From positions 1 through 64,000 of the forward strand of contig JAUYCX010000035.1 of NCBI GenBank assembly GCA_030692045.1: a stretch of DNA of 64,000 bases, written 5' to 3'. The notes under the pieces were generated by a model. That model saw only the letters and a list, made by a program, of their open reading frames with translations. It was not told where the DNA came from and made no database searches. This document shows, in pieces, positions 4,219 through 62,471 of the stretch; the first letter of the stretch is position 1, and each line of letters starts with the position of its first letter. This DNA comes from Candidatus Omnitrophota bacterium. GTDB lineage: Bacteria; Omnitrophota; Gorgyraeia; JAUYCX01. A program made the position numbers and the translations under genes.

Positions 4219-4887
4219 ATGAAGAAGCAACTAAAGAATGGTTTTACCCTTGCTGAGATTCTGGTAGTTGTTTTGATATTTTCCTTTCTGATGAGCGGCT
4301 TGTTCGCTGTTTTACTCACTGGCCAGAGGTCTTGGCATGTTTCTGATGTTTCAATTGAACTTCAGCAGGATTTGCGTAGTTCCCTTATGCGTATAACCCG
4401 TGAGCTTCATCAGTCCGGTTTTAAATGTAATGACCCGCCAGCTTGCACTAACACAACCATTCAGGTAACCATTGCCCCAAATCCCGATGTAATCAACACG
4501 GATATTTTAAGATTTAAACTGCCTGTTGATTATAATCGGGATGGTTATATAAAAAATAATAACGGCATTGTAGAGCTTTGGGGTGCGAATTTGACTTGGG
4601 GTTGTAGTGATTTTGGCTGTCAAAAGCCCAAAAGTCCAGAGTCCCAGAACAATAATTATCAAATTGAATATTTGTTAGATGTAAATAAACAGCTTATAAG
4701 ACGGGTTTTGAATACTAGCTCGACTACAATTCAATCGGACATTTACGCTACTAATTTAATAGATTTTCAAGCCAGTATCAATGGAAACATTGTAACCATT
4801 CAATTAACAGCAGAAAAGAAACCTGCTGTAGGAGATAATATTACTTCTAACTTGAGTGTTCAGATTTTATTAAGGAACAGGGGGTAA
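4219..4887 (+). CDS. Prepilin-type (PilW-like) protein; ORF extends upstream to 4138
   Basis: MKKQLKNGFTLAEILVVVLIFSFLMSGLF prepilin motif; in-frame ATG at 4219. Confidence 0.85.
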   Translation: MKKQLKNGFTLAEILVVVLIFSFLMSGLFAVLLTGQRSWHVSDVSIELQQDLRSSLMRITRELHQSGFKCNDPPACTNTTIQVTIAPNPDVINTDILRFKLPVDYNRDGYIKNNNGIVELWGANLTWGCSDFGCQKPKSPESQNNNYQIEYLLDVNKQLIRRVLNTSSTTIQSDIYATNLIDFQASINGNIVTIQLTAEKKPAVGDNITSNLSVQILLRNRG

Positions 4888-5095
4888 ATGAGGACATAAG
4901 TTATGGAGTCCGCCACAGAACTTTGGCGGACGACATAACTTATATGTCCGAATTTACCCAGCACTAATTTTTGAAAGAGTGCATTATTTAAAACGAAGGT
5001 AAATTTAGTAACTATCTCATAGATTTTGAACACCGCACAGTTACAAAAATTAGTGCTGGGTTCAATTCCGACAAACAACTTACGTCGTCATTGAA
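4886..5095. repeat. Nested-palindromic junction element, copy E1
   Basis: Ends AAATGAGGACATAAGTTATG...CAACTTACGTCGTCATT; core arms ACCCAGCACTAATTTTTG (4956-4973) / CAAAAATTAGTGCTGGGT (5044-5061) perfectly complementary; flanked by direct repeats GGGGGTAAAT (4880-4889, 5096-5105). Confidence 0.85.
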
Positions 5096-5105
5096 GGGGG
5101 TAAAT

Positions 5106-6893
5106 ATGATTAAGAATAGAAAGGGTATTGCATTAGCTATCTCATTTTTGGTAATTATAGTGTTAGTAATTTTGGGCAGTGTTTTTATTTTAAGAAGTGT
5201 AGGCGAGAAAAATGCCGCGGATAAAGAAAAGAAATCTATTCAGGCATTTTATTTAGGAGAGGCAGGCGCCAATGAGGCATTAAATAGATTAGTTGTACTG
5301 ATTAATTCAGACTTAATGCTTACGGTAAATAGTACCAATCCACAAGTTTTAGCCAATAATGTCAGAAGCTATGTTAATTCTAGCGATGGCTTGGTTTTTT
5401 TGGCTAACTATACTAAGGAAAATAACACTCCTCAATTTATCTGTCCTCAAAATTGCTCTAACTGCCAAAACTGCACTTTTATAACTTATAATGGCCAAAT
5501 AACAAATTTTGGCCAAGGTAATTATCAATACATAATTACAGTTAATGAGAATGGCAATCCTACAACCATTACCACGGATGTTTGGGATTTTCCATATAAT
5601 TACAAAATTTCAAGTACTGGCACAGTTGCAGGTATCCCCCGCAAGATTATTTCCTCTGGAGATTTTACTGTGCGAGTTCAGCATGATAATTTTGCCAGAT
5701 ACGCTTTGTTTGATGTGCATCACACAACTCCTGGCGGAGATGCAGTTTGGTTTACCAGCCGGACAAATTTTAGTGGTCCTGTGCATACAAATGACCAATA
5801 TAGATTTTATGGGAATCCTAACAGTGTACCTGTGGGCATAAGTGGAACTTTTGAGGGTTTGGTAACCCAGCATTTAAACAAGGCTTGGTTTTATAATCTG
5901 GGCTCTCCTTTTCAGGCTGACCAGGACAGTAACCCTGGGAAAGATGTTCCGGTTTTAAATGCCGGTTTTCAGCGCGGTGTGAATGAAATAAACCTAGAAT
6001 CTTCAGTTACGCAGCAGGATTTAATGAATCAGGCGCAAGGTGGAGTGGGTGGCAGTTATGCAGATGGGATTTATGTGAATAATGACGGCAGTAATGTAAT
6101 CGGAGGGATTTATATAAAAGGAAACTCAACTATTGAAATGGGTAAGGATGTTAACGAAAATGCAACCTATAACATTGTTCAAGGCGGCTCAAATAAAATT
6201 ATTACTGTGGATTATGTAAATAACCAAACCACAGTCCAGACTGCGGGAGGTCCAACCAATGTTTATAACGGTAAGCCTGACGGCATAGATAATTTAGGCA
6301 CCATAATTTATGCTGATGGCGCTGTGGATAGTTTAAAAGGAACTGTTCAAAAGGATTCTCAGGTTACAGTTTCCAGCCAAGGTAACATTATAATTACAGA
6401 CCACATTATGTATGAGGATTACAATCCTGCTCAAGGAGTGCCGGGGCAACCGGGTTATGTTCCTCCTAATGCCGAAGGCAAGACCAATTTATTAGGCATA
6501 CTTTCTTGGGGCGGTGATGTTAATATTGGTACATCTTCGCCAAATGATATAAATCTACACGGCACAATGATGGCCAGAAACGGAATTTTTACTGTAGAAA
6601 GCTATTCCTCCCGCTGTAATTCTAATCCTAGTTGTGATTCTCAGTTACCTTCTGGTGGTTGTGGCGCAGCCACGCTTTTAGGTGGAGCCATTACAAATTT
6701 TTATGGTGCTTTTGGCACCTTTTGTGCTGGTGACGGAAGACCGCGCAGTGGCTATGGCAGAAATTTTGTTTATGATGAAAGAATGGCTCAGGGCAATGCA
6801 CCGCCTTATTTTCCGTCAATGAGAACATTTATTGCCCTTACCCCCAATGACACCATTAAGGATAAAATTACCTGGCAAGAGGGAGGTCAATGA
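5106..6893 (+). CDS. PilX-like pilus assembly protein
   Basis: N-terminal KNRKGIALAISFLVIIVLVILGSVFILRSVGEKNAADKEKKSIQAFYLGEAGANEAL, typical PilX N-terminal domain; start ATG 5106 after GGGGG. Confidence 0.8.
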   Translation: MIKNRKGIALAISFLVIIVLVILGSVFILRSVGEKNAADKEKKSIQAFYLGEAGANEALNRLVVLINSDLMLTVNSTNPQVLANNVRSYVNSSDGLVFLANYTKENNTPQFICPQNCSNCQNCTFITYNGQITNFGQGNYQYIITVNENGNPTTITTDVWDFPYNYKISSTGTVAGIPRKIISSGDFTVRVQHDNFARYALFDVHHTTPGGDAVWFTSRTNFSGPVHTNDQYRFYGNPNSVPVGISGTFEGLVTQHLNKAWFYNLGSPFQADQDSNPGKDVPVLNAGFQRGVNEINLESSVTQQDLMNQAQGGVGGSYADGIYVNNDGSNVIGGIYIKGNSTIEMGKDVNENATYNIVQGGSNKIITVDYVNNQTTVQTAGGPTNVYNGKPDGIDNLGTIIYADGAVDSLKGTVQKDSQVTVSSQGNIIITDHIMYEDYNPAQGVPGQPGYVPPNAEGKTNLLGILSWGGDVNIGTSSPNDINLHGTMMARNGIFTVESYSSRCNSNPSCDSQLPSGGCGAATLLGGAITNFYGAFGTFCAGDGRPRSGYGRNFVYDERMAQGNAPPYFPSMRTFIALTPNDTIKDKITWQEGGQ

Positions 6894-7131
6894 AGACACG
6901 ACTTATGGAACGAAGTGACATAAGTCGTTTGGCTGAATTGACCCAGCACTAATTTTACTGACAGCGCAGGTTTCTAAATAAAATGGTTTTATCCGAAATA
7001 AATCCGTAACATTGTTATTAAGCATATTAGTAAAATTAGTGCTGGGTTTAATTCGCAGACGGACTTCGTCCTATGATTTATGTCGTCCGCCACGAATATT
7101 GGCGGACTCCATAAATCATCTGCTCATTAAA
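6893..7131. repeat. Nested-palindromic junction element, copy E2
   Basis: Core arms ACCCAGCACTAATTTTACT (6941-6959) / AGTAAAATTAGTGCTGGGT (7029-7047); flanked by perfect 14-bp direct repeats GGGAGGTCAATGAA (6881-6894, 7132-7145). Confidence 0.88.
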
Positions 7132-7145
7132 GGGAGGTCAATGAA

Positions 7146-7454
7146 ATGAACAAAAAGCCAAGTAACATTTTTCTAATCGTTAGTATTTCCTTTGTTATCA
7201 TTTTTATTTTAGCCATTATTTCAGTAAATAATTGGTTAAAACAGGCCCTAAAAGAAGAAACTGCTGTCCAGGAAAAATTATCTGTTCCAGCTGTTAGCAA
7301 AAGTAAATATAAACAACCATCTATAAAGCCGCAGACTGGAAGAGCTGTTGCTGAAGATAAAGAAAAAAAAGCGGCCACTTCAGAAACTACCGAAACAGGT
7401 TTTAAAGAAATTGAGACAAGCGTTCCTCAGACAGAAAAAGTGTTGATGAACTAA
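7146..7454 (+). CDS. Small single-TM hypothetical protein in pilus operon
   Basis: 102-aa ORF with GGGAGG RBS; one N-terminal TM segment; lies between PilX-like and PilM-like genes. Confidence 0.65.
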   Translation: MNKKPSNIFLIVSISFVIIFILAIISVNNWLKQALKEETAVQEKLSVPAVSKSKYKQPSIKPQTGRAVAEDKEKKAATSETTETGFKEIETSVPQTEKVLMN

Positions 7455-7466
7455 AAATAAATCGCT

Positions 7467-8549
7467 ATGGAAGATATTTTAAAGAAATATTTTTCTCAGT
7501 ATTTTCTAAAAATCAAAGAGCTCATTCCTAAATCAAAACCCAAAACTTTTGTGGGTTTAGATATTGGTGCTTCGAGCGTTAAAGTGGTTGAAATAAACAA
7601 TGATGCAGTTGGCTTCACAATTGATAAATTTACAGTTGAAGCTGTTAATCAGGATGATGTTGCCTCCTCAATTGCTAATGCATTGGAAAAAAGCGGCGTA
7701 GCTACGAAAACTGTTAACACATCTGTCAGTGGTCAGGGAGTTATTATTAGGTATGTTGTGATGCCTAAAATGCCACTCTCTGATATAAAGTCTTCTATTA
7801 GTTTAGAGGCGGATAAATATTTCCCCTTTCCTTTAGAAGAAGTAATTATGGATTGTTTTATTCTAGAGGATAGTCCTCTGGAAAATAAAGTTTTTGTCTT
7901 AATTGCCGCGGCTAAAAAAGAGTTGATCGAGCAAAGAATTGCCCTACTTCTTAAGCTTAATTTAGAGCCGCAAATAATTTCAACTGACTCAATTGCTATG
8001 GCTAATGTGTTTAATGTATTGGGCCCTAAATTAAATATAGATTATGCTTTAGATTCTCAAGGCAGAGTTTCTTCTTTGGCCGTATTAAATATCGGGGCAA
8101 CTTTTAGCAATTTAAATATTATCAAGAATAATTTGCCATGTTTTACCAGAGACATTTTTATAGGAGGCATAGATTTTACCAAGAAAATTAGTAACATTTT
8201 AGGCTTGGATATGAAAGCCGCTGAAAATTTAAAGCTCAATGGGCCAGATGATGAGAAGCAAAAGATTTTGGATGCCTGCGAATCGGTTTTAAATAATCTT
8301 CTGACTGAAATTAGGCTGTCCTTTGATTATTTTGAAACAGAGAATAATATACCGGTTAGCCATTTGTATCTAAGCGGCGGTGGTTCTTATTTAAAAGGAT
8401 TAGATGAAACAATGAGGCAGGGCTTAGGTATTGAAATAGATTTGTGGCAGCCATTTTTGGGTTTGAATGTTAATCCTAATTTATCTACACGAGATTTAAA
8501 AGCTCAAGCTAATAAATTAAGCATTGCTATTGGCTTGGCATTAAGATAA
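7467..8549 (+). CDS. pilM: Type IV pilus assembly protein PilM
   Basis: FVGLDIGASSVKVVEI actin-like ATPase motif and LYLSGGGSYLKGLDE; followed by PilN/O/P/Q-like genes. Confidence 0.92.
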   Translation: MEDILKKYFSQYFLKIKELIPKSKPKTFVGLDIGASSVKVVEINNDAVGFTIDKFTVEAVNQDDVASSIANALEKSGVATKTVNTSVSGQGVIIRYVVMPKMPLSDIKSSISLEADKYFPFPLEEVIMDCFILEDSPLENKVFVLIAAAKKELIEQRIALLLKLNLEPQIISTDSIAMANVFNVLGPKLNIDYALDSQGRVSSLAVLNIGATFSNLNIIKNNLPCFTRDIFIGGIDFTKKISNILGLDMKAAENLKLNGPDDEKQKILDACESVLNNLLTEIRLSFDYFETENNIPVSHLYLSGGGSYLKGLDETMRQGLGIEIDLWQPFLGLNVNPNLSTRDLKAQANKLSIAIGLALR

Positions 8550-9133
8550 TGATTGATATCAATTTACTGCCAGAAAAATTTAGAAAGAAAAGAAGGGTAA
8601 TTGAGAGAGAGGTTTTGGTGTTTCCCAAAGAGATAATTGTTGGCCTTATAGGGGGTCTAATTTGTTTGTTAATCATCACTCACCTTATTCTACTTACATT
8701 TCTTTTCTCCAAGAAAATGCAATTGTCGCATTTAACCAAAGATTGGGAAAAGATATTACCTGCGAAAAAAGAGATAGATGTATTTAAAAATGAGATTGAC
8801 TCAATTGAATCTAGAATGAAATCCATTGCTCTTATACGTAGTGGCAAGAAAATTTCTTGGTCTCAAGAGCTAAATAAAATAAGTGATTGTATGGTAAGAG
8901 GTCTTTGGTTAACCAGAATTTATTTTGGAGAGGGCCTTTTGAAAATTGAGGGCAGTGGTGTATCGCAAAAAGGCCAGGAGTTGATAAACGTAGGCAAATT
9001 TACTTCCAATTTAAAAGAGGATAAGAGATTTTACGAAGGCTTAATTAGTTTGGAGCTTACTAATATTGTGAGGCGTAATATCAAGTCAACTGAAGTGGTA
9101 GATTTTATTATAACCGCCAGCATTAAAGAATGA
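8549..9133 (+). CDS. pilN: PilN-like fimbrial assembly protein
   Basis: MIDINLLPEKFRKKR start typical of PilN, single TM, position after pilM. Confidence 0.85.
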   Translation: MIDINLLPEKFRKKRRVIEREVLVFPKEIIVGLIGGLICLLIITHLILLTFLFSKKMQLSHLTKDWEKILPAKKEIDVFKNEIDSIESRMKSIALIRSGKKISWSQELNKISDCMVRGLWLTRIYFGEGLLKIEGSGVSQKGQELINVGKFTSNLKEDKRFYEGLISLELTNIVRRNIKSTEVVDFIITASIKE

Positions 9134-9137
9134 TAAT

Positions 9138-9698
9138 ATGAATTTTCTTTTGGAAAGGCATAAAAATTTAATTATCGCACTTTTCCTAATACTGCTTTTT
9201 ATTTTAGATTTTACACTTCTTATGGGCCCACAAATTAGAATCTTAAGAAAGATAGGCGCCAAGGTTTTAGTTCTAAGTAGTGATTTAAGAAAAGCAAAAA
9301 AGGATATCGCCTCTCAAAAAGAATTTAAAGATAAATTGACCCTTTTAAAAGGTAAAATAGAGGAAATTGGAGCAAGTGTTAAGCCTGAAGAAGAGTTGCC
9401 CTCTATTCTGGATACTATTTCACGTACAGCCAATCGCACCTCTGTTAAAATTACACAACTTAAACCTCTCAAGGAGGAAAGAACAGTTGTTCTAAAAACC
9501 GGGAAAACTTTATTTTATCAAATTCCCGTATTGATTGATGTACGCTGTGGCTATCATGAATTGGGAAAGTTTTTAAATGAACTAGAGAGGGGAGACTTAT
9601 TTTTGAAAATAATCGCTTTGGAAGTTACAACCAATCAAGATGATATCCTGCATCATTTAGTAAGGCTGACTATTCAATTATTCGTGTTAGGCAAATGA
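9138..9698 (+). CDS. pilO: PilO-like pilus assembly protein
   Basis: N-terminal TM, coiled coil, then ferredoxin-like PilO domain region (PSILDTISRTANRTSVKITQLKP); synteny. Confidence 0.82.
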   Translation: MNFLLERHKNLIIALFLILLFILDFTLLMGPQIRILRKIGAKVLVLSSDLRKAKKDIASQKEFKDKLTLLKGKIEEIGASVKPEEELPSILDTISRTANRTSVKITQLKPLKEERTVVLKTGKTLFYQIPVLIDVRCGYHELGKFLNELERGDLFLKIIALEVTTNQDDILHHLVRLTIQLFVLGK

Positions 9699-10045
9699 AG
9701 ATTAAAACAATATTTTTGATATTTTTTATGGGGAGTTGTGCTTTGGTTTATTCCCAGGCTGATTTTATTTATGACAGCAAAGGAAGACGCGACCCATTTT
9801 TGCCTTTGGTTAGTAAAGAAGGCTACATTATAAATCGCGAAACAGAAATTTTGGCTTCAGATATGAATCTGGAGGGAATAATTTATGACCCTAGGGGAAA
9901 GAGCTTAGCTATTATTAATGGTACGGTCTTAAAAATTGGTGACACAATTGGTAATTACAGTATAATAGAAATAGAAAAAAATAAAGTTACATTATCATGG
10001 GGTAATGAGAAAATTATTTTAGAGTTAAAGCAGGAGGGCAAATGA
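9695..10045 (+). CDS. PilP-like pilus lipoprotein/periplasmic protein
   Basis: 'RRDPFLPL' motif and short beta domain as in PilP; synteny. Confidence 0.7.
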   Translation: MKIKTIFLIFFMGSCALVYSQADFIYDSKGRRDPFLPLVSKEGYIINRETEILASDMNLEGIIYDPRGKSLAIINGTVLKIGDTIGNYSIIEIEKNKVTLSWGNEKIILELKQEGK

Positions 10046-11400
10046 AGAATAATATGCTTAGGGTTTTTACAATAACCTTATTATTTTTTCTTATTGCTTG
10101 TTTAGCCAAAGCACAAGAGCCAGCGCAAAAAACAGATGAAACCGCTGCAAAACTTCCAGCTGTGGAAGAGTTGGTTGTGACTACGCCTGGAAATGTAACA
10201 TTGGATTTTCGCGATGCAGATATAAGAAATGTCTTAAGAATTATTTCGTATAAAAGCGGTGTTAACATTGTTCCAGGGCCTGATGTTACAGGTTTAATTA
10301 CCATACAGCTTACAGATGTTCCGTGGGAAAAGGCATTGGATGTTATCCTTAAAACTTACGGTTATGGTTATGAGCGTCAGGGTAATATTATTACTGTCAG
10401 CACCTTTGAAAAACTTTCAGAAAAAAGAAAGATTGAAAAAGAATTAGCAGAACAAGAACCCTTGGTTACCGAGGTTTTTATTTTAAGTTATGCTAAATCA
10501 AAAGATCTTATGGCATCGCTTAAAGAGATGCTTACAACCCGCGGCAGGATAAATGTGGATGAACGTACAAATACAATTATTGTTACTGATAACACAACAA
10601 ACATGGAAAGAATAAGGTCAATTATGCCAAATCTGGATGCTGTAACTCCTCAGGTCTTGATTGAGGCAAAGGTTGTGGAAACCAGAATTGATAGTTCTGA
10701 TAAGTTAGGCATTGACTGGACTGCTAAAGCCACAGCCTCACTGCCGCAGCGACCCGTTCTGTTTCCATTCGATAGTTCTTCCACCAGTAGATACGCACCG
10801 GATAACTTTCCCTCAGCTACTTCCACAGAATTTAAATTCGGAACTTTAAATTTTAGTCAATTTCAAGCGGTGTTAGAATTATTAAGCTCAAGAACAGACA
10901 CAAATATTTTATCCAATCCGCGCATTGTAACATTGGATAACCAGACAGCCTCCATAACTGTAGGTACAAAATGGCCTATTGCACAGTACACCTATAACGC
11001 TGATCAGGCAAAATGGCAGGTTTCTGGCTGGGAGTATTTGGATTTTGGAATTTTATTAAAAGTAACTCCACATGTAAATAAAGAGGGGTTTGTGACTTTG
11101 GATGTTGCTCCCGAGGTTAGCGAGCAAAATGGTTCGGTTACTTTCGAGACGGCAACCATACCAATTCTAACTACTCAAGAGACATCCACACGGGTAATGA
11201 TTAAAGACGGAGAAACATTAATAATTGCAGGGCTGTTGAAGGATAAAACAATCGCCACCAAGAAAAAAATACCCTTTTTGGGTGATATTCCAATTGTGGG
11301 GCTAATTTTTCAGAAAAGAGAAAATACGATAGAAAAGAAAGACCTCCTTATCTTTATTACGCCTCATATCATTACTCCAGTTGCAACGCCTAAAGCATAA
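10042..11400 (+). CDS. pilQ: Type IV pilus secretin PilQ (compact form)
   Basis: VTLDFRDADIRNVLRIISYKSGVNIVPGPDVTG (STN/N0) and secretin C-terminal domain (NILSNPRIVTLDNQTASITVGTKWP; KKKIPFLGDIPIVGLIFQ). Confidence 0.93.
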   Translation: MKNNMLRVFTITLLFFLIACLAKAQEPAQKTDETAAKLPAVEELVVTTPGNVTLDFRDADIRNVLRIISYKSGVNIVPGPDVTGLITIQLTDVPWEKALDVILKTYGYGYERQGNIITVSTFEKLSEKRKIEKELAEQEPLVTEVFILSYAKSKDLMASLKEMLTTRGRINVDERTNTIIVTDNTTNMERIRSIMPNLDAVTPQVLIEAKVVETRIDSSDKLGIDWTAKATASLPQRPVLFPFDSSSTSRYAPDNFPSATSTEFKFGTLNFSQFQAVLELLSSRTDTNILSNPRIVTLDNQTASITVGTKWPIAQYTYNADQAKWQVSGWEYLDFGILLKVTPHVNKEGFVTLDVAPEVSEQNGSVTFETATIPILTTQETSTRVMIKDGETLIIAGLLKDKTIATKKKIPFLGDIPIVGLIFQKRENTIEKKDLLIFITPHIITPVATPKA

Positions 11401-11483
11401 ATTTTAGAAATCAAATTTTTCTTCTGTTTATTCGAAAGGCGCTTCATTTTATTTTGACAAAAATAGCGTGAAAATTTATTCAT

Positions 11484-12797
11484 ATGAGTAAAGATATACT
11501 TATTAACATTAAGCCTAAGGAAAAACGTGTAGCCGTGGTTAAAGAGGGCAAACTTGAGGAGTTTTACTTAGAGTTATCAGGGGACACTTCGCTATTAGGC
11601 AATATCTACAAGGGAAGGATTGATTCTGTTGTTCCTTCAATTAATGCCGCTTTTGTAGATATTGGTATTGGGAAGAATGGTTTTTTATATCTAACAGAAA
11701 TGTCCAATCCTTTATTAGAAGAAGAGACGTCTTTGACTCAGAAATTCTTAAATAAAATTTTGAAAAAGAAAACCAATGTGGCGACTGGTAGACTAAGATT
11801 TGTTAAGGGTGATGAAGTTTTGGTTCAGGTTGTTAAAGAGCCGTTTGGCACAAAGGGGCCAAGATTAACTACCCACATTAGTTTGGCTGGCAGATTCTTA
11901 GTATTAATGTCACAGGATAAGCCAGCAGGAGTTTCGCGCAGGATTGATTCGCTGGATGAGCGCAGGCGCCTGCGGCAAATCTTATCTGATTTAAGATTCG
12001 CTGAAGGGGTGGGCTTTATTGTAAGAACTGCCTCTTTAGGAAAGGGTAAAAGAGAACTTATACGCGATGCAAAATTTCTCTTTAAAATGTGGCTAAGAAT
12101 TAAATCATCTGCCAAGAATCAGAAGGCTCCAGCCTTAATTTATAAAGAATACGATCTTATGTGGAGGGTTGTTCGCGACTATTTTTCTGAAGATATAGAC
12201 GGCATTTATATTGATTCTAAGCTTGAGTTCTTGAAGTTTTTGCGTTTTGTAAAGACATTAATCGGGCCACATTTGATAAAAAAGATTCATTTTTACAAAG
12301 AAAACCTTCCCTTATTTGAAGCCAAAGGTATAGAGAATGAGATAAAAAAGATATACGAGAGAAAGATTTTCTTAAAGTCAGGTGCCTACATTGTTATTGA
12401 ACCAACAGAAGGGCTAACAGTTGTAGATGTCAACAGCGGCAAATTCAAATCTCAGTTAGACCCAGAGACTGCTGCTTTTCAGGTAAATATTGAGGTAGCT
12501 TCTGAGATTGCCAGGCAGATTAGACTTAGGGATATAGGCGGAATAATTGTTATTGATTTTATTGATATGGCAAAAGAATCTCACCGAAAGGCAGTATTTG
12601 AAACTTTAAAGCAGGCTTTATCTTTTGACCGTGCAAAAACAGAAGTTCAAGGAATTTCCAATCTGGGTTTAGTTGAGATGACCAGAGAGCGAACTGGAAA
12701 AACTTTAGAATCTAAGTCTTTTGAGGATTGTCCACATTGCAAAGGAACTGGGAAAATAAAAATAAATGAGGACATAACTTATGGAGTCCGACACTAA
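11484..12797 (+). CDS. rng: Ribonuclease G/E family protein
   Basis: S1-like N-terminus, [42 protein letters not shown]-type motif, C-terminal CPHCKGTG zinc link. Confidence 0.93.
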   Translation: [437 protein letters not shown]

Positions 12798-12834
12798 ATC
12801 AATGGCGGACGACATGACTTGTGTCGTCATTGAA
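12764..12834. repeat. Junction element, short copy E3 (termini plus one hairpin, no core)
   Basis: TAAATGAGGACATAACTTATGGAGTCCG...TGGCGGACGACATGACTTGTGTCGTCATTGAAG; shares both termini with E1. Confidence 0.75.
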
Positions 12835-12847
12835 GGAGGATTTTAAA

Positions 12848-13165
12848 ATGTATGCTATTGTTCAAATAGGCCAAAGCCAGTACATGGTAAAAAAGGGCGA
12901 TACAATTGCAATAGATCGTCTGGATGATAAAGAGGGTAAGAGTGTTAATTTTGACAAGGTGATTTTATTGTGTAGTGGTAAAAGTGAAGTAAATATTGGT
13001 CAGCCATATTTAAAAGGCATAAAGGTAAACGCTGAAGTTTTGCGACATTTTGACGGAAAAAAGAAAATCGCTTTTAAATATAAACGTAGAAAGCATTACT
13101 ATCGAAAACATGGACACAGACAGCTCTTAACTCAGCTTAAGATTATAGATATCTCGGAAAAATAA
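12848..13165 (+). CDS. rplU: 50S ribosomal protein L21
   Basis: MYAIVQIGQSQYMVKKGDTIAIDRL...KYKRRKHYYRKHGHRQLLTQLKI; true start 12848 after AGGAGG. Confidence 0.95.
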   Translation: MYAIVQIGQSQYMVKKGDTIAIDRLDDKEGKSVNFDKVILLCSGKSEVNIGQPYLKGIKVNAEVLRHFDGKKKIAFKYKRRKHYYRKHGHRQLLTQLKIIDISEK

Positions 13166-13169
13166 TTCA

Positions 13170-19078: not shown

Positions 19079-19143
19079 TAGAGGCTTAAGCAAAAAATTT
19101 TTTGAAAATCATAAAAAGAATAGGAGGCGGTGAATAATTTAAG

Positions 19144-19347
19144 TAAGGACATAAGTTATCTGTCCGAACTTACCCCACACCCAGCCTCTGGCTGGAAAGT
19201 GCTTGGGGTAAATTTCAATGTTATACAAACCCTTCATCCTAAAGGCTGGGTGAGGGGTTAAATTCGCAGACGCTTAAGACTAAGTAAAATGATAGACGCT
19301 ATAACTTATGCCTGCCGTCAGGCAGGCATAAGTTATCTGCTCATTTA
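19144..19347. repeat. Nested-palindromic junction element, copy E4 (variant core arms)
   Basis: TAAGGACATAAGTTATCTGTCCGAACTTACCCC...GGGGTTAAATTCGCAGACG...CATAAGTTATCTGCTCATTTAAG; includes perfect 16-bp stem ATAACTTATGCCTGCC-GTCA-GGCAGGCATAAGTTAT (19301-19336). Confidence 0.82.
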
Positions 19348-19361
19348 AGGAGAGATGATAA

Positions 19362-34609: not shown

Positions 34610-34922
34610 GTCTCCAGCTTTAAAAGGCTGTCCGCAAAGGCGGGGGGTTTGCGTCCAGGTTAGAACCATGACACCTAAAAAACCTAACTCTGCTTTGCGC
34701 AAGATTGCTAGAGTCAGACTTACTACTGGCATTGAAGTAACTGCCTATATTCCCGGTGAAGGGCATAATCTTCAAGAACATTCTATTGTTTTGGTGCGAG
34801 GTGGAAGGGTTAAGGATTTACCAGGGGTGCGTTATCATATAGTGCGTGGAACATTGGATACAGCAGGAGTAAATCAAAGGAAAAGATCTCGTTCAAAATA
34901 CGGAGCCAAGAGACCCAAATAA
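34551..34922 (+). CDS. rpsL: 30S ribosomal protein S12
   Basis: [57 protein letters not shown]; overlaps rpoC 3' end by 59 nt. Confidence 0.96.
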
Positions 34923-34923
34923 G

Positions 34924-35114
34924 TGAGTCCGCCAATAATTTGTGGCGGACGAACTTACCCAGCACTAATTTTGAAAGAGCAGTTTTATGAGATTAAAGGG
35001 TAAATTTTGTTATTACTCCGAAAGTTACAAACTCAGCACTATTAGAAAAATTAGTGCTGGGTTAAATTCGCCCAAACAACTTATGTCATTACATTCCATA
35101 AGTTGTGGGCTCAT
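34924..35114. repeat. Nested-palindromic junction element, copy E5
   Basis: Core arms ACCCAGCACTAATTTT (34957-34972) / AAAATTAGTGCTGGGT (35047-35062); left hairpin GTCCGCCA..TGGCGGAC; right end CATAAGTTGTGGGCTCATTT. Confidence 0.83.
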
Positions 35115-35119
35115 TTAAA

Positions 35120-52532: not shown

Positions 52533-52549
52533 TTTGAGGAGGATAAAAA

Positions 52550-53542: not shown

Positions 53543-53543
53543 G

Positions 53544-54191: not shown

Positions 54192-54206
54192 AGTTTTTGT
54201 CCTTTA

Positions 54207-55382
54207 ATGAAACTTGCCCAAAGAATTCAAAATGTATCCGGTTCCTTAACTCTTGAAATCACTTCCCGGGCAAAAAAATTACGCCAAGAAGGCTTTGATG
54301 TGATAAATTTTGCTGCTGGAGAGCCAGATTTCGACACACCAGAATTTATTAAAGAAGCGGCAATAAAAGCTATACATGATGGCTTTACCAAATACACTCC
54401 CTCCTCTGGAATTCTTGAACTTAAAAGTGCTATCTCTCGAAAATTTAAAAATGAGAATAGACTAAATTACAATCCCAGCCAAATTGTTGTTTCTTGCGGC
54501 GCAAAGCACTCCATTTATAATTTAATCCAAGTTTTAACTGAATCTGGCGATGAAGTAATTATACCCTCGCCTTATTGGGTTAGCTACCCAGAGATGGTTA
54601 AACTCGCAGAAGCTACTGCGGTTATATTAAGAGCATATCCTAATGAAAATCTAAAAATAAATATTTCTTGTCTTAAGCAAGCAATCACTTCCAAAACAAA
54701 ATTGCTTATTTTAAACAGTCCCTCAAATCCCACAGGAGTAGTTTATAATCCAGATGAGCTTAAAGAAATTGCTAAAGTTTGCATTCAGAATAAAATTTTA
54801 GTTATCAGCGATGAAATTTATGAACATTTAATCTATGATGGGCAAAGTTATACCTCGATTGCTTCGTTAGGCAAAGAAATTTATGATTTAACTATTACGG
54901 TGAACGGTGTTTCTAAGGCGTTTTCCATGACCGGTTGGCGCATTGGGTATTTGGGTGCTTCAGAAGAAATTGCTTGCGCTGTTTCTAAATTTCAAGATCA
55001 CTCTACTTCAAATCCCACATCAATTAGTCAAAAAGCCGCATTTGCCGCTTTGGAGGCAAAAAATAGCTGGTTGAAAAAATTATGCCTTGAATTTGAAGAA
55101 AGACGTAACCTTATGCTTCAATGTTTGGATAACATATCAGCTTTAAGTTACATTAAACCGCAAGGCGCATTTTATGTTTTCTCTGACATCTCAAAATTAG
55201 GATTAGATTCACACACCTTTGTTAAAAGGTTGCTGGAAGAAGAGAATGTTGCTTTGATTCCAGGTGAAGGCTTTGGAATGGAAAATTATGTGCGTTTAAG
55301 CTTTGCCACAAGTAAGGATAAAATAAAGCTTGGCATGGAAAGAATTGAAAGATGGGTAAAACAATTGCTGAAAAAATCCTAA
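54207..55382 (+). CDS. Pyridoxal-phosphate aminotransferase (aspartate aminotransferase-like)
   Basis: GEPDFDTPEFIKEAA; NSPSNPTGVVY; SDEIYEHLIYDG; GVSKAFSMTGWRIGY PLP-Lys motif. Confidence 0.93.
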   Translation: MKLAQRIQNVSGSLTLEITSRAKKLRQEGFDVINFAAGEPDFDTPEFIKEAAIKAIHDGFTKYTPSSGILELKSAISRKFKNENRLNYNPSQIVVSCGAKHSIYNLIQVLTESGDEVIIPSPYWVSYPEMVKLAEATAVILRAYPNENLKINISCLKQAITSKTKLLILNSPSNPTGVVYNPDELKEIAKVCIQNKILVISDEIYEHLIYDGQSYTSIASLGKEIYDLTITVNGVSKAFSMTGWRIGYLGASEEIACAVSKFQDHSTSNPTSISQKAAFAALEAKNSWLKKLCLEFEERRNLMLQCLDNISALSYIKPQGAFYVFSDISKLGLDSHTFVKRLLEEENVALIPGEGFGMENYVRLSFATSKDKIKLGMERIERWVKQLLKKS

Positions 55383-56611
55383 GCCTGCACGCTAAAAAGG
55401 ATTTAGTTGCCGGAGACTTTGCTGTGTGCTCAGTAGATTTTTGTTTTGGACAGGATGGCACAAGCAGTATTATTATTGATAGATTAAAAGAATTAGGCGT
55501 AAAGAAGATATTTGATAAAAATAAATTTTGTCTAGTTATTGACCATAATAGCCCCAGCCCCACTTTAGGAGTTTCTCAAGTACACAAGAAGATGCGCCAA
55601 TTCTCAAGGGAGCAAGACATAGAGCTATTTGACATCGGCTGCGGGATTTGCCATCAGGTTATTCCGGAGCAGGGTTTTATTGTGCCGGGAGATTTAGTGG
55701 TTGGCGCTGATTCTCATACATGCACTTACGGTGCGCTTAATGCCTTTGCCTGCGGCATGGGTTCTACGGATGTTGCAATCACGTTAGCAGGTGGCAAAAA
55801 TTGGTTCAAGGTTCCCCAAACATTAAAGATAATCACAGAGGGTAAATTACCAAAAGGAGTATTCGCAAAAGACCTTATTCTTTATATAATTGGTGACATA
55901 GGCAGTAATGGTGCAACCTACAAGTCAATTGAGATTTACGGTGAGGCAATTGAGCAAATGAGTATGGAACAGCGCTTTACCATTTGCAATATGGCAATTG
56001 AAAGTGGAGCAAAGGCCTTAACTTTAGAGGCAGATAAAAAAATACTTGATTGGCTTAAAAAAAGAAAACTTAAAAAGCAACCAAATCCTCAAACCGCAGA
56101 TAAGGATGCCAAGTATCTTGCTATAAAAAGATACAAGATCTCCAAATTGGCGCCACAGGTTGCTAAGCCTCATGCTGTGGATAATGTTTCAGATGTTAGC
56201 AAGCTTAAAGATATAAAAATTGATGAGGCTTTTTTAGGAACTTGCACTAACGGCCGCCTGGAAGACTTAACAGTTGCTGCTAAAATTTTAAAAGGCAGAA
56301 GCGTTCATCCTGATGTTAAGCTTATTGTAGCGCCTGCTTCCAAAGAAATTTTCCTAGAAGCTTTAAAAAGTGGTATTATTAAGGTTCTGGTTAATGCTGG
56401 ATGTGCAATTGTTACGCCAGGCTGTGGGCCATGTGTGGGCACTCACAATGGCGTTCCTGCAGATGGAGAAGTAGTTATATCAACGGCTAACCGAAATTTT
56501 AAAGGCCGGATGGGTAACCCCAGTAGCTTTATTTATCTGGCTTCGCCTGCAACTGTGGTAGCTTCGGCAATTAGGGGTAAAATTACAGACCCCAGAGAAT
56601 TTTTCAAATGA
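55352..56611 (+). CDS. leuC: Aconitase-superfamily large subunit (3-isopropylmalate dehydratase/homoaconitase LeuC-like)
   Basis: VVGADSHTCTYGALNAFACGMGSTDVA; LGTCTNGRLEDL; TPGCGPCVGTHNGVPADGEV. Confidence 0.92.
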   Translation: MGKTIAEKILSLHAKKDLVAGDFAVCSVDFCFGQDGTSSIIIDRLKELGVKKIFDKNKFCLVIDHNSPSPTLGVSQVHKKMRQFSREQDIELFDIGCGICHQVIPEQGFIVPGDLVVGADSHTCTYGALNAFACGMGSTDVAITLAGGKNWFKVPQTLKIITEGKLPKGVFAKDLILYIIGDIGSNGATYKSIEIYGEAIEQMSMEQRFTICNMAIESGAKALTLEADKKILDWLKKRKLKKQPNPQTADKDAKYLAIKRYKISKLAPQVAKPHAVDNVSDVSKLKDIKIDEAFLGTCTNGRLEDLTVAAKILKGRSVHPDVKLIVAPASKEIFLEALKSGIIKVLVNAGCAIVTPGCGPCVGTHNGVPADGEVVISTANRNFKGRMGNPSSFIYLASPATVVASAIRGKITDPREFFK

Positions 56612-56870
56612 AGCCACAACTTATGGAACGAAGTGAAATAAGTTGTTTGGCTGAATTTGACCCGAAGAATATGTCAAAATTATCGTAGAGAATTTTGACA
56701 TAGTTTATGAGTCGGGAATATTGATAACATATGCCCCTCGCCTAAACATCCCGAAAATCTCTTCGATATTTTCGGGATAGGCTTCGGGATTAATTCGTAC
56801 AAACAAAGTAGCGACTCAAAGGAAGATTGATACTTGACATAAAGAATGTCAAGTATCAAGTGCTCATTAA
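56608..56870. repeat. Nested-palindromic junction element, copy E6 (variant core arms)
   Basis: Left ATGAAGCCACAACTTATGGAACGAAGTGAAATAAGTTGTTTGGCTGAATTTGACCCG (compare E2); GGGATTAATTCGTACAAACAA; right hairpin GATACTTGACAT..ATGTCAAGTATC and GCTCATTAAAGGAGG end. Confidence 0.8.
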
Positions 56871-56881
56871 AGGAGGAATGT

Positions 56882-57928
56882 ATGGAATTAAGGGAATTGC
56901 TAATGCTTACTATTGAGAAAAAGGCCTCAGACCTTCATTTAACTGAGAATACGCCTCCGGTTTTAAGAATTGACGGGAAATTAACCCTTACCAAATTTCC
57001 TGCTTTAAGCCGGGAAGATACTAAGAAAATGATTTATAGCATGCTTTCAGATGTACAAAAGGAGGTATTTGAAAGGGATTTGGAGCTAGATTTTTCTTTA
57101 GCCCTACCAGGATTAGACCGCTTTCGTGTAAATGTACATATTCAGAAAGGTTCAGTTGAATCTGCTTTTCGCCGCATCCCTTTATTTGTGCCTAGCCTTG
57201 AAGAATTGGGCTTACCTACAGTTGTAACTGATTTAGCCAGAAAGCCAAACGGTTTGGTTTTAATTACTGGACCAACAGGGGTAGGAAAAACTACAACCCT
57301 GGCCGCTATGGTTGATTTAGTTAATAATGAAAGTTCAAAGCTTATTGTTACAATTGAAGACCCTATTGAATTTATTCACTACAATAAAAAAAGTATTATT
57401 AAACAGCGCGAGGTTTATAGTGACACCAAGTCTTTTGCTGCGGCATTAATGCATTGTTTAAGACAGGACCCCAATATTATTGTTGTAGGCGAAATGCGTG
57501 ACTTGGAAACAATCTCAACAGCTTTAACTGCTGCTGAAACTGGACACTTAGTTCTAGCAACCCTGCATACACCTGATGCTCCTCAGACTATTGAGAGGAT
57601 TATTGATGTTTTCCCGCCGCACCAACAACAACAAGTGAAATTACAACTTTCAGATTGTTTACAAGGGATTTGTTCACAGTTATTGCTTCCTCGCGCAAAT
57701 GGAATTGGCAGAATTCTGTCAACTGAGATTTTAATTGCCACGCCTGGAATTAGAAATTTAATTCGAGAGCAGGAAATTGAGCAAATTCCCACCCTCATTC
57801 AAACCGGCAGTCAGTATGGCATGAAGACAATGGATAAGTCTTTAAAAGACCTTTATCATGCAGGATTAATTAGCTATGATGTGGCAGTAAGTAAAGTTAA
57901 GAGTCCCGAAGAGTTTAAACATTTATGA
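56882..57928 (+). CDS. pilT: Type IV pilus twitching motility ATPase PilT
   Basis: MELRELLMLTIEKKASDLHLTENTPPVLRIDGKL; Walker A GPTGVGKTTTLAA; GIRNLIRE C-terminal PilT motif. Confidence 0.94.
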   Translation: MELRELLMLTIEKKASDLHLTENTPPVLRIDGKLTLTKFPALSREDTKKMIYSMLSDVQKEVFERDLELDFSLALPGLDRFRVNVHIQKGSVESAFRRIPLFVPSLEELGLPTVVTDLARKPNGLVLITGPTGVGKTTTLAAMVDLVNNESSKLIVTIEDPIEFIHYNKKSIIKQREVYSDTKSFAAALMHCLRQDPNIIVVGEMRDLETISTALTAAETGHLVLATLHTPDAPQTIERIIDVFPPHQQQQVKLQLSDCLQGICSQLLLPRANGIGRILSTEILIATPGIRNLIREQEIEQIPTLIQTGSQYGMKTMDKSLKDLYHAGLISYDVAVSKVKSPEEFKHL

Positions 57929-57929
57929 A

Positions 57930-58430
57930 ATGAAATTAAAGGGTTTTGCCTACAAATTCGGCGATAATATTAATACAGATTTAATAATTTCTGGCAGGTA
58001 TAAATTTTCTATTACCGATATAAAAGAATTATCCCAACACTTATTTGAAGATATAGAGATGGATTTTTCTAAAAAGTTAAAGTTTAATGAATCCATTATT
58101 GTGGCAGGAGAAAATTTTGGCATGGGTTCTTCTCGAGAACAAGCACCCTTGGTTTTAAAAGAGGCAGGGATTATTGCGGTAGTTGCCAAGAGTTTTGCTC
58201 GTATTTTTTTTAGAAATTCATTTAATATAGGCCTGCCTTTAATTGAGACAGATACATCTAAAATCAATGCAGGCGACGAATTGCAAATTGATTTAGAAAA
58301 AGGTATATTGTTAAACCTGTCGCATAAACAAAGCCTTTCAATTAAGCCACTACCATCTGTGATGAGAAGCATCTTAGATGACGGTGGTTTGGTTTCTCAT
58401 TTTAAAAAATATGGAAGGTTTAAGATATGA
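57930..58430 (+). CDS. leuD: Aconitase-superfamily small (swivel) subunit, LeuD-like
   Basis: [38 protein letters not shown]. Confidence 0.92.
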
Positions 58431-59509
58431 TTCATAAAGTGACACTTATCCCTGGCGATGGTATTGGTCCCGAAGTAAGCACTGCTGCAAAAAAATGTAT
58501 TGAGGCAACTGGTGTTAAAATTGAGTGGGAAGAGTTAATAGCTGGAGAGGGCGCAATAAAAAAATGGGGAATGCCTTTACCTAAAGAAGTTTTAAAATCA
58601 ATTAAAAAGAATAAGGTTGGTTTAAAGGGACCAATTATTACTCCGGTGGGCAAAGGTTTTCGTTCAGTAAATGTGCAATTAAGGCAGGAATTAAATTTAT
58701 TTGCCTGTGTACGGCCAGCCAAGTCTTTTAAAGGGGTGCGCTCTAAGTTTAAGGATATTGACTTGGTTGTAATTAGGGAAAACACAGAAGATTTATATGC
58801 AGGGATTGAGTTTAAAGCAGGTTCGCTAGAAACCAAAAAACTAATTAAAAAGATTCAAGATTTGCAGGATAAAAAGATTAGAGTTAATTCAGCAATTTCC
58901 ATAAAACCAATTTCTAAATTTGCTTCAGAGAGGATTGTGCGTTTTGCCTTTGAGTATGCCCTAAAGAATAACCGAAAAAAGATTACCGTGGTTCATAAGG
59001 CAAATATTATGAAATTTACCGACGGTCTATTTTTAGATACAGCTCGAAAGGTTTCTAAAGAGTATGAGCATAAATTGAAGTTTGAAGAGGTAATTGTAGA
59101 TAATATGTCTATGCAGTTAGTACAAAAGCCAGAAAATTTTGATTGTTTGGTTTTGCCAAATCTTTATGGCGATATAATTTCTGATCTTTGCGCAGGTTTA
59201 GTTGGCGGTTTAGGAATTGCCGCAGGGGCAAATTTCGGCCAAGGTTTGGCACTTTTTGAACCAGTACATGGTGCAGCTCCCAAATACGCAGGCTTTAATA
59301 AAGTAAATCCAACTGCAATGATTCTTTCCGGGGTTCTTATGTTAAGGTATTTAAATGAACAAGTTGCTGCAGATAAGTTGGAAGATGCAGTCAAAGAAGT
59401 CATCAAAGAAGGAAGATTTGTAACTTACGATTTAAAGGCTAATCGCGATGACCCCACAAGTGTGGGAACACAAGAGATGGCAGAGGCGATATGTCAAAAA
59501 TTGCGGTAA
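58427..59509 (+). CDS. NAD-dependent isocitrate dehydrogenase-type (IDH/IPMDH family)
   Basis: [25 protein letters not shown]-like; [42 protein letters not shown]. Confidence 0.9.
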
Positions 59510-60408
59510 TCGGTGCTGGTAATGTGGGTAGTCTTGTTGCCATGCGTATAGCTGAGGCAAATCTGGCAGATTTAGTTCTTTTGGATGTAATTTCTGGTAT
59601 TGCAATTGGCAAGGCCCTTGATATGGAAGATGCCTCAGTAATTATGGGGCATAATCGAACAATTAAAGGAACAGCTGATTTTTCTTTGCTGGAGGGTTGC
59701 GATATTGTAGTTATTACTGCTGGTTTTAGCCGCAATCCAGGGATGAGCAGAGTTGATTTGTTGAATAAAAATGCACAGGTTATAAGGGGCATTTCCAGAA
59801 ATTTAAAAGAACTAAAGAAAGAACCCATTGTAATTGTTGTAACTAATCCGGTTGATATATTAACTTATTTGGTCTTAAAGATAACTGGTTTCGACAAGAG
59901 GAGGGTTATGGGTTTAGGGGGCAGTTTAGATACAGCCAGATTCATAAATTTAATCCGCCAGGAATTAAAGGTTTCTTACGAAGATGTTAAAACTTTTGTA
60001 ATTGGAGCTCATAGTGAGAATATGATTCCCTTGGTAAGCAAAACTCAAGTGAAGAATAGACCTCTAACTGAGATTTTAAGCGAAGATAAAATTAAATTAT
60101 TGGTAGACGCAACGCAAAAAAGAGGCGCAACAATTGTTTCCAATTTAGGAAGCGGCAGTGCTTATTTTGCTCCCTCAGCTGCAATTCTTGAAATGGTTAA
60201 GGCCATTATTCTCGACGAGAAAAAAGAGATTATTGCCTCTAGCTTCTTGGATGGAGAATACGACTTAAAAGATATCTGTTTTGGTGTTCCTGTGATTATT
60301 GGAAAGAATGGAATAGAAAAAATCGTAAAACTGGAATTAGCTCAAGAAGAGCACAGCGGCTTGATAAATACCGCTAAAGGAATAAAGCAATGTTTGATTT
60401 GTGCGTAA
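59491..60408 (+). CDS. mdh: Malate dehydrogenase
   Basis: [72 protein letters not shown]. Confidence 0.92.
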
Positions 60409-61694
60409 TTGGTTCTGGTTGGGCAGGTTTTAATGCCGCTTTAAGGGCTGCAGAATTGGGCGCTAAGGTTTGCTTAATTGAACAGGATAAATTAGGGGGC
60501 GTGTGTTTAAACTATGGATGTATTCCCACAAAGGCAATGATAAATTCCTCTCGGATCTTCTCGCATTTAAACAGCTTATCCAATTTTGGAATTGAAATAA
60601 AGGAAACCTCGTTTAATTTTGATAAAATTCAAGAATATAAATTAAATGTTGTTGAAAGACTTAAGTCGGCTATTAATTTCCAGCTAAAAAATAAAGGGAT
60701 TGAGTTTATTAAGTCCAAGGCAAAGTTGATTGCCCATGATGAGATTGCCGCAGATGACCAAAAAATTAAGGCGAAGAATATAATTATTGCCACTGGCTCT
60801 TTAGCTGCAGAATTGCCATCATTAAAATTCGACGGGAAAAGAATTGTTTCCAGTAATGAAATATTGGAACTAAAATCTATTCCTAAAACCTTATTAATTG
60901 TCGGTGGCGGAGCAATTGGCTGTGAATTTGCCAGCATTTTTTCTTCTTTGGGTTCAAAGGTTACTGTAGTTGAGCTTTTGGATAGGCTCTTGCCCTTAGA
61001 AGATAGAGATATTTCGCAAAAGCTTGAAATGGTATTTCGAAAAAAAGGAATAAAGGTTCTGACTAAAACTAAACTAGAGGAATGTCCTTTAGAGGAGTCC
61101 GAAAAGATCTTGGTTTGTGTGGGAAGAAGACCCAACATACAAAATTTGGGTTTAGAAGAGCTGGGGATTAAAACAGAAAAAAATCGCATTTGTGTCAACA
61201 ATTTCCTGCAAACAAATATACCTAATATTTATGCAGCCGGCGATTGTGTGGGGAAAAAGATGCTTGCCCATGTTGCCTCTTACGAAGCAATAGTTGCCGC
61301 AGAGAATATTTTTGCTTCAAAAAAAGAAATAGAATACTGGGCTGTGCCTAACTGTATCTTTTGCGACCCTGAAATTGGAACTGTTGGTCTAACCGAGGAT
61401 GACGCCAGAAATTTGGGTCGGGATATTTCTATCAGCAAGTTTAGTTTTTTAAGTTCTGGTATGGCGCAGATATTGGGAGAAACAGATGGTTTTATTAAAA
61501 TAATTTGCGATAGCAAAACCTATGAATTGTTAGGAGCTGCAATTATTGGTCCAAAAGCAGCAGAGCTTATTGCCACCTTAACTTTAGCAATAAGAAAACG
61601 TCTAAAAATAGAGGACATCCATGACACAATTTTTGCTCACCCAACCCTATCAGAGGCAATTTTCGAGGCAGTCAAAGGGTTTAAACGATTGTAA
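60390..61694 (+). CDS. lpdA: Dihydrolipoyl dehydrogenase
   Basis: [47 protein letters not shown]-terminal HAHPTLSEA-like FAHPTLSEAI. Confidence 0.94.
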   Translation: MFDLCVIGSGWAGFNAALRAAELGAKVCLIEQDKLGGVCLNYGCIPTKAMINSSRIFSHLNSLSNFGIEIKETSFNFDKIQEYKLNVVERLKSAINFQLKNKGIEFIKSKAKLIAHDEIAADDQKIKAKNIIIATGSLAAELPSLKFDGKRIVSSNEILELKSIPKTLLIVGGGAIGCEFASIFSSLGSKVTVVELLDRLLPLEDRDISQKLEMVFRKKGIKVLTKTKLEECPLEESEKILVCVGRRPNIQNLGLEELGIKTEKNRICVNNFLQTNIPNIYAAGDCVGKKMLAHVASYEAIVAAENIFASKKEIEYWAVPNCIFCDPEIGTVGLTEDDARNLGRDISISKFSFLSSGMAQILGETDGFIKIICDSKTYELLGAAIIGPKAAELIATLTLAIRKRLKIEDIHDTIFAHPTLSEAIFEAVKGFKRL

Positions 61695-62355
61695 TATCAT
61701 TGATTTAGGATTGATTGCCTATAATGATGCATTTCAGTTTCAGCTGAAAAAATTAAACGAAAGAATCAATAATAAATGTTGTGATATCTTGATTATTTGT
61801 GAACACCCTGCGGTTTTTACTTTAGGCAGGCTAGCGAATAAAGAAAATATTTTAACTGACGAAGATGCATTAGCCAGCCAAAATTTAAAAGTAATCCGGG
61901 TAAATAGAGGGGGTGATGTGACTTTTCATGGGCCTGGTCAATTAGTAGCTTATCCAATTTTTGATTTAGCCAAATACAAAAAAGATTTAAGATATTTTCT
62001 GAATAGATTAGAAGAGACAGCCATTCAATTCTTAAAATATTTTGGTGTCGAAGTTTTTCGTCGGACTAACTCAATAGGTGCTTGGTTTAATGATTATAAG
62101 ATTGCTTCAATTGGCATTGGTGTCAAGAAATGGGTTTCCTTTCATGGTTTGGCAATAAATATAAATACAGATTTAAGATATTTTTCCTATATTAAGCCTT
62201 GTGGTTTAGATATAAAGATGACTTCTTTGCAAGGTATAAAACATTATAAAATAAATATGCAACATGCTAAAAGGATAATCGTAGATAAATTTGCTTCGAT
62301 TTTTGGTTTGAAGATAGATGAAAAAGCCTCCAGACGTATTGTCGGGGTTGGTTGA
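61621..62355 (+). CDS. lipB: Lipoyl(octanoyl) transferase LipB (start uncertain)
   Basis: EHPAVFTLGRLANKENIL; VNRGGDVTFHGPGQLVAYPIFDL; SIGIGVKKWVSFHGLAININTDL. Confidence 0.94.
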   Translation: MTQFLLTQPYQRQFSRQSKGLNDCNIIDLGLIAYNDAFQFQLKKLNERINNKCCDILIICEHPAVFTLGRLANKENILTDEDALASQNLKVIRVNRGGDVTFHGPGQLVAYPIFDLAKYKKDLRYFLNRLEETAIQFLKYFGVEVFRRTNSIGAWFNDYKIASIGIGVKKWVSFHGLAININTDLRYFSYIKPCGLDIKMTSLQGIKHYKINMQHAKRIIVDKFASIFGLKIDEKASRRIVGVG

Positions 62356-62471
62356 ATTAAACCCTTGACATCGAAAAATGTCAAGGGTTTAATTCGCAGA
62401 CGTCCGCCAATGAAGCAATGGTGGACTACAACTTGCGTTCACTAACGTTCCGTAAGTTGTCTGCTTATTAA
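62356..62471. repeat. Nested-palindromic junction element, copy E7 (left-truncated variant)
   Basis: Perfect 17-bp stem AATTAAACCCTTGACAT (62356-62372) / ATGTCAAGGGTTTAATT (62378-62394) followed by CGCAGACG and right end AAGTTGTCTGCTTATTAAAAGG. Confidence 0.78.

Follow-up and report, generated by a model that had tools for sequence, protein, structure and literature searches.

The seven intergenic sequences E1–E7 in the window studied here, i.e., the whole 64,000-nucleotide stretch of an Omnitrophota contig, are probably MITE-like derivatives of miniature mobile elements that encode a GIY-YIG nuclease and target translation-initiation sites, a reading to which we attach a probability of roughly 0.7. 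As judged from comparative sequence analysis, several features when taken together support this reading: a dispersed family with a distinctive end structure; an ORF nested in its longer members and maintained by purifying selection; insertion at Shine-Dalgarno sites; and recent mobility.

Copies in the Window and Their Relatives

All seven sequences reported by a first-pass annotation were found where it had placed them (Table 1), and its claim that seven gene junctions carry related sequences is borne out by a blastn search with E1, which returned 87 matches in the source genome (G000; 2.19 Mb in 119 contigs, a draft with 7.5% estimated contamination). The covariance-model search proposed alongside that claim, using a model of a single end unit (R1, built from 31 end units), yielded 144 end-unit matches in the same genome; as read from the stretches around the matches, these pair into at least 68 two-ended elements with a median length of 226 bp, with solo ends in addition. 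Independent assemblies show this anatomy too, and R1 matches are present in 26 of 39 relatives of the class and, at a threshold of 1e-7 in a phylum-wide scan, in 199 of 384 sampled Omnitrophota genomes. The Rfam covariance search gave only two tRNAs in the window and no match in the longer copies, and the open-access literature offered no description of a GIY-YIG transposable element in bacteria. Over this range of sources, a hit to a described repeat family, which the first-pass annotation had named as a refuting outcome, did not turn up, and we provisionally regard the family as undescribed.

Both ends are kept by E1, E2, E4, E5 and E6, and E7 does indeed lack the left terminus, as had been remarked, retaining the core and the right end. 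By core type, E1, E2 and E5 match the parents L051, L093 and L211, and E4 matches L246, with E7 combining a core of the L226 type and a right end of the L093 type. E4 lies upstream of a gene for a protein with S1 domains; the right end of E5 abuts an ATG with no obvious Shine-Dalgarno sequence there. The ORF of the RNase E/G gene extends into E3 and stops at 12797, so that E3 supplies its last codons and stop. A single-hairpin remnant like E3 is also seen in the genome G267 at a position where G033 has the full element. A 907-bp pair of ends (L059) was considered as an autonomous element and rejected; its 90-residue ORF is of a different kind, and the pair may represent two solo ends.

Table 1. 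Elements and associated direct repeats in the window.
Feature	Position	Strand	Remarks
E1, two-ended non-autonomous copy, core type CAGCACTAATTTT	4885..5094	+	both termini and the core can be aligned with L051, L211, L093 (GIY-YIG-bearing parents)
E1 direct repeat AGGGGGTAAAT, left copy	4879..4889	+	includes the stop codon of the upstream gene
E1 direct repeat AGGGGGTAAAT, right copy	5095..5105	+	Shine-Dalgarno region of the downstream gene
E2, two-ended copy, core type CAGCACTAATTTT	6887..7130	+	internal motif GGGTCAAT matches the flank
E2 direct repeat AGGGAGGTCAATGAA, left copy	6880..6894	+	own-genome repeat survey gave AGGGAGGTCAATGA
E2 direct repeat AGGGAGGTCAATGAA, right copy	7131..7145	+	directly 5' of the ATG at 7146
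E3, single-hairpin reduced copy	12762..12834	+	between the RNase E/G gene and rplU
E4, two-ended copy, core type CCCCACACCCAGC	19138..19350	+	core matches GIY-YIG-bearing L246, L247
E5, two-ended copy	34920..35118	+	between rpsL (S12) and rpsG (S7)
E6, two-ended copy, divergent core (CCCGAAG..TTCGGG)	56605..56870	+	downstream of an aconitase-family gene
E7, truncated copy: core TTGACAT and right end only	62350..62471	+	core matches GIY-YIG-bearing L226; right end matches L093

Structured Ends with a Covarying Foot

Each end is a hairpin with a foot, in which the outermost 5–6 bases pair with an internal motif that precedes the hairpin. From inside to outside, the unit reads GGGTnnAAT - TC - GnnC - stem CAACTTATG - TC - loop - TC - CATAAGTTG - GnnC - TC - ATTnn(n), a pattern that can also be written GGGTnnAATTCGnnC-A(A)CTTATG..CATAAGTTG-GnnCTCATT. 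Over 140 end units of the source genome the 12 inner stem pairs are 98.6% paired, against 76% in shuffled and 29–41% in slid controls, and contain 394 compensatory cells. G-U pairs make up ~12 of about 1656 paired cells, and this near-absence suggests that the pairing conserved in the end units is that of a DNA rather than an RNA structure.

The foot is constrained in a comparable manner: in the source genome positions 1–5 are paired in 98, 98, 98, 92 and 92% (shuffled control: 97, 74, 97, 37 and 58%) and position 6 in 71%, with pairing ending at position 7; at positions 1–5 the value is at least 91% in both G000 and G033. Rare foot variants covary (TCGAAT/ATTCGA, TGTAAT/ATTACA, TCAAGC/GCTTGA, TTATGT/ACATAA). 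The first-pass annotation had described the ends as terminal inverted repeats and the interior as a scaffold around a central repeat. The end units are indeed inverted copies, but their outermost bases differ at positions 4–5 in most elements, and the termini are hence not simple inverted repeats: the left and right terminus of one element agree in only 16% (position 4) and 41% (position 5), and each pairs with its own internal motif in 93–94% at these positions. Positions 4–5 contradict both a reading of the termini as plain inverted terminal repeats and one in which the two ends form a four-way junction. The scaffold, GAATTnnACCC..GGGTnnAATTC, is likewise present, but it proves to be the internal motif with which the foot pairs.

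Insertion at Shine-Dalgarno Sequences

G033 and G267 belong to one genus and keep synteny at 72–84% nucleotide identity. Instead of the same elements at all the same junctions, the outcome that had been named as refuting the initial claim, 15 of 22 sites occupied in G033 read as element-free in G267 (two of the 15 with an approximate left boundary); of the remainder, two have an element or single-hairpin remnant, one a different palindrome, and four give no clear reading. At the clean site L324:3577, the empty sequence is ATCAGGAGGATG and the filled one ATCGGGAGG-[TCAAATGA..TCATTAA]-AGGAGGATG. A nuclease-bearing copy (L335:3045) has AAAGG on both sides, and the duplications elsewhere are AGGAGA (L335:8657), AAGGAGG/AAGGGGG (L322:5740), AAG (L322:8188), AAGGGGGGTA (L326:2285) and AAGGAAGTCAAAATGAA (L324:10541), with none at the clean sites L323:10312 and L332:7495. 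Across the readable junctions, the duplication usually takes in the Shine-Dalgarno run and measures 0–17 nt. These element-free sites, several with the Shine-Dalgarno run duplicated, uphold the view that the direct repeats at E1 and E2 signify insertion. A duplication of fixed length was considered and is contradicted by lengths varying from 0 to about 17 nt; most copies in the source genome are now without a clear direct repeat.

In most clean G033 sites the empty target does not contain TCAAAT, the left terminus, which thus came with the element. Foot bases that are always derived from the target are contradicted by the same observation; at E2 and L324:10541 the target already had matching foot bases.

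Among the 66 two-ended elements of the source genome with long flanks, a Shine-Dalgarno sequence with an ORF start is found at one end in 44 and at both ends in none, compared with 8% for random positions, in keeping with the initial description of the family as RBS-targeting and MITE-like. The orientation of the core relative to the genes varies. As the Shine-Dalgarno run is duplicated, the downstream gene keeps an RBS; dozens of copies can thus sit in operons, even between ribosomal protein genes. At the level of such genome comparisons, both mobility and target choice are demonstrable, and the elements are evidently recent insertions.

A GIY-YIG Nuclease Nested in the Core Stem

E1–E7 are gene-less, and the earlier statement that no ORF lies inside is correct for every copy in the window, but it does not extend to the family. 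Longer copies of about 375–440 bp carry one ORF, and only one, for a GIY-YIG nuclease of 77–85 residues (longer in one divergent case), which sits inside the central stem, 7–26 bp from the end units. Autonomous parents with shared termini, of the kind that the first-pass annotation proposed to look for, thus exist; the gene they carry is that of a GIY-YIG nuclease and not of a known transposase.

Two such copies in the source genome (C9:11220-11634, C71:453-878) have an intact 79-residue ORF, the ATG of which directly follows the stem CAGCACTAATTTT and the TAA of which lies where the opposite stem strand begins; two more (C9:115420-115813, C98:20307-20684) have the same ORF with one stop. Four of the 11 GIY-YIG genes of this genome thereby fall inside two-ended elements, which cover 0.6% of it (P = 5e-7), and the genes L199–L203, L205 and L209 have no such end units. 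The ORF again lies between end units in G033, and also in G025 and G014, where the proteins are divergent (34–37% identity). Among named genomes, we obtained 11 GIY-YIG loci with end units, comprising UBA6210 and the ten best relatives (at least 44% identity; nine on Omnitrophota contigs, the tenth on a contig assigned to Planctomycetales); the end units stand on both sides in nine and on one side in two, 7–26 bp from the ORF. The GIY-YIG gene L249, on a contig labelled Planctomycetales (SBBM01000057.1), has an R1 left end, and its genome is placed in a different phylum, which would reflect either transfer or contig misbinning.

The start of the ORF was seen inside the core stem on reading the L190 and L170 loci of the relatives, and its position there is constant across at least ten genomes and several core sequences. 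L170 is a short copy with the beginning of the ORF still present in its core stem and, from this arrangement, is evidently a deletion intermediate between the long and the gene-less copies. The dN/dS values between copies of the ORF (0.05–0.29) indicate purifying selection. Its product belongs to PF01541 (Pfam): the whole ~80-residue chain is the catalytic fold, the catalytic-type residues are invariant, and a separate DNA-binding domain is absent. By sequence, UPF0213 proteins and Slx1 are the nearest solved structures, and the best PDB matches of a structure model (pLDDT 93), at modest E-values, are UPF0213, Slx1, UvrC and the catalytic domain of I-TevI. The element-borne nucleases group in the tree, with the L226 and L259 lineages lying apart, and the end type tracks the nuclease clade (4 changes vs. 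12 in shuffles). The ORF has no Shine-Dalgarno sequence of its own, and no gene other than GIY-YIG recurs between the end units. Some element-rich genomes, among them G011 with 48 end units, gave no GIY-YIG match to the query; these may have lost the nuclease, have a diverged one or manage without it.

Proposed Mechanism and Its Alternatives

We picture the following mechanism. The autonomous form would be an element of about 375–440 bp, with two inverted end units around a long central stem enclosing the GIY-YIG ORF. The nuclease would recognize the folded end units as DNA and nick at their feet, and the nuclease or a host repair step would open a purine-rich Shine-Dalgarno sequence upstream of a gene. 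The element would then be joined or copied in, with the Shine-Dalgarno run being duplicated in the process. The stop codon of the upstream gene would now fall in or beside the left terminus (a TAA or TGA within TAAATGA, TCAAATGA), with the downstream gene retaining its own RBS, so that insertion within operons, even between rpsL and rpsG, could be tolerated. Copies without the ORF would presumably be moved in trans. We infer a role for the GIY-YIG protein as the cutter of both ends and target, and DNA rather than RNA as the active form; a new copy might be made either by transposition or by break repair. Slx1 is structure-specific on branched DNA, and the closeness of the element protein to it agrees with ends whose structure is conserved and whose sequence varies. 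To our knowledge, GIY-YIG nucleases do not rejoin DNA; hence, host repair must be assumed. The variable direct repeats (0 to about 17 nt) are unlike those of a classical transposase and count against this explanation, as do the missing Shine-Dalgarno sequence of the ORF, the element-rich genomes in which the query had no GIY-YIG match, and the many source-genome copies that now have no clear direct repeat.

As a sub-mechanism of the same reading, spread might occur by intronless homing, with the nuclease cutting Shine-Dalgarno-like sites and break repair via short purine-rich homology taking the place of transposition proper. Direct repeats that vary in length and lie in purine runs are consistent with such a process. 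GIY-YIG homing enzymes leave 2-nt 3' overhangs, and the free-standing ones, such as the phage T4 seg genes, resemble the present elements in being single intergenic GIY-YIG genes behaving as selfish elements (PMC2988022). However, homing of free-standing genes uses long flanking homology, and here dozens of unrelated sites per genome have only about 5–10 nt in common, the termini (TCAAAT..ATTAA) are largely element-borne and constant, and a single cognate site with long homology is not seen. Unlike in those genes, the GIY-YIG catalytic domain stands alone in a protein of ~80 residues, with no DNA-binding domain, is built into structured ends, and has short gene-less derivatives. We consider this route rather unlikely.

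The GIY-YIG gene could instead be a passenger: a nuclease gene of the homing type would have taken up residence in a palindromic element, in its core, with another enzyme of the host or of an element moving the family. The many copies without the ORF, the element-rich genomes without a matching GIY-YIG gene and the few nuclease lineages with these ends that lie apart in the tree (L226, L259) are all compatible with this proposal. It is nonetheless improbable given that, across several core sequences and at least ten genomes, the ORF occupies the same point of the core stem, that it is under purifying selection, and that no other gene recurs between the ends.

A more familiar kind of mover would be a Y1 transposase (RAYT or IS200/IS605) encoded elsewhere and acting on REP/BIME-type elements. 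The paired inverted hairpins, with a foot motif that pairs with terminal or flanking bases, do recall REP and IS200/IS605 ends, and Y1 genes are common in these genomes (six in the source genome). However, R1 end units are found at 0 of 15 scanned Y1 loci, which contradicts Y1/RAYT movers and leaves no Y1 gene among these loci flanked by the same hairpins; further, there are genomes with 3–4 end units and no Y1 gene, and genomes with Y1 genes and no end units. IS200/IS605 elements contain their Y1 HUH transposase and make no target duplication, whereas here the element ORF is GIY-YIG and the Shine-Dalgarno run is duplicated; the foot of 5–6 bp with its many variants is a further difference. 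The involvement of a Y1 enzyme is thus very improbable. Finally, vertically kept regulatory RNA structures of operons (attenuators or processing sites), which the strong folding of copies between co-directional genes might bring to mind, are scarcely credible in view of the 15 of 22 sites that are element-free in a genome of the same genus, the varying core orientation, the near-absence of G-U pairs and the nuclease gene of full-length copies, though single copies might possibly have been co-opted for such a role.

Relationship to Known Systems

Under the usual definition of MITEs (PMC10969869), the copies agree in size, lack of a gene, direct repeats and a parent with shared ends: the 68 two-ended elements, with their median of 226 bp, fall within 50–500 bp and have no functional transposase gene; target site duplications, albeit of variable length, occur at E1, E2, other copies in the source genome and several clean G033/G267 sites; and the ends are shared with the GIY-YIG-bearing elements as the autonomous form. 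Prokaryotic MITEs such as RUP, Chunjie, QMITE and ERIC are likewise gene-less, intergenic sequences of this size with strong stem-loops, some with direct repeats, and are mobilized by a relative with the same ends, as is putatively the case here. They also have inverted ends; in the present family the end units are inverted copies whose outermost bases differ at positions 4–5 in most elements. In contrast to these, the relative encodes a GIY-YIG nuclease rather than an IS transposase, the ends are hairpins with a covarying foot and the target is a Shine-Dalgarno sequence.

Penelope-like elements use a GIY-YIG domain for mobility and have variable direct repeats, and are similar in both respects; the present elements differ from them in having no reverse transcriptase, in being prokaryotic and in their size of about 400 bp. 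UPF0213 (YhbQ/YazA) and Slx1 are the closest solved structures by both sequence and fold, and we know of no case of either being encoded by mobile elements of this kind.

Other GIY-YIG Loci and Wider Implications

Several further arrangements of small GIY-YIG ORFs came to light. In the source genome, four stand beside tRNA genes (L200, C14:287487; L201, C91:3975; L202, C51:10767; L203, C14:170634), as do L233 (G024), L260 and L268 elsewhere, and several of these seven have a duplicated tRNA fragment on the other side; they are possibly tRNA-targeting GIY-YIG elements. In L212 (G021) and L213 (G035), the ORF lies between GAACCCCGCACCTTC..GAAGGTGCGGGGTGA inverted repeats at gene junctions, and in G267 the junction matching L333:5410-5584, which is occupied by an R1 element in G033, has a similar palindrome without a gene; together these are a second family that occupies sites of the same kind. 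L253 (Niyogibacteria, MHMQ01000025.1) has a GIY-YIG ORF at ~2501-2746 in a long hairpin within an apparent 16S rRNA gene. L084:1301-1645, on contig C51 of the source genome, is an element with a stretch similar to part of a tRNA gene (..GTTCAAATCTCGTTGGGGCTACCA) inside its core, and its right flank repeats AATCTCGTTGGGG. L250 (Jorgensenbacteria) and L254 (Liptonbacteria) are patescibacterial GIY-YIG genes with a common core stem, CCCGCCCTCTATGC..GCTTAGAGGGCGGG, and without R1 end units; in general, the more distant GIY-YIG genes of Patescibacteria lie in a core stem similar to that of the elements and lack R1 ends.

Against this backdrop, we tentatively entertain a mobile-element class with a single-domain GIY-YIG nuclease of ~80 residues as the sole mobility gene, which would read folded DNA ends rather than sequence, open Shine-Dalgarno sites, and spread itself and its gene-less derivatives through the genome; other GIY-YIG elements of Omnitrophota and Patescibacteria might act likewise, with tRNA genes and further gene junctions as their sites. 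We give such a class somewhat less than even odds.

GIY-YIG genes of ~80 residues are common in uncultured bacteria, where their usual annotation is that of a small nuclease with unknown role. One such group is now tied to a mobile element, with its anatomy, target and short derivatives, and the covarying foot makes the choice of target directly testable. If the nuclease is the mover, these would be among the smallest autonomous mobile elements known, and their mobility enzyme would belong to none of the usual DDE, HUH, serine and tyrosine types.
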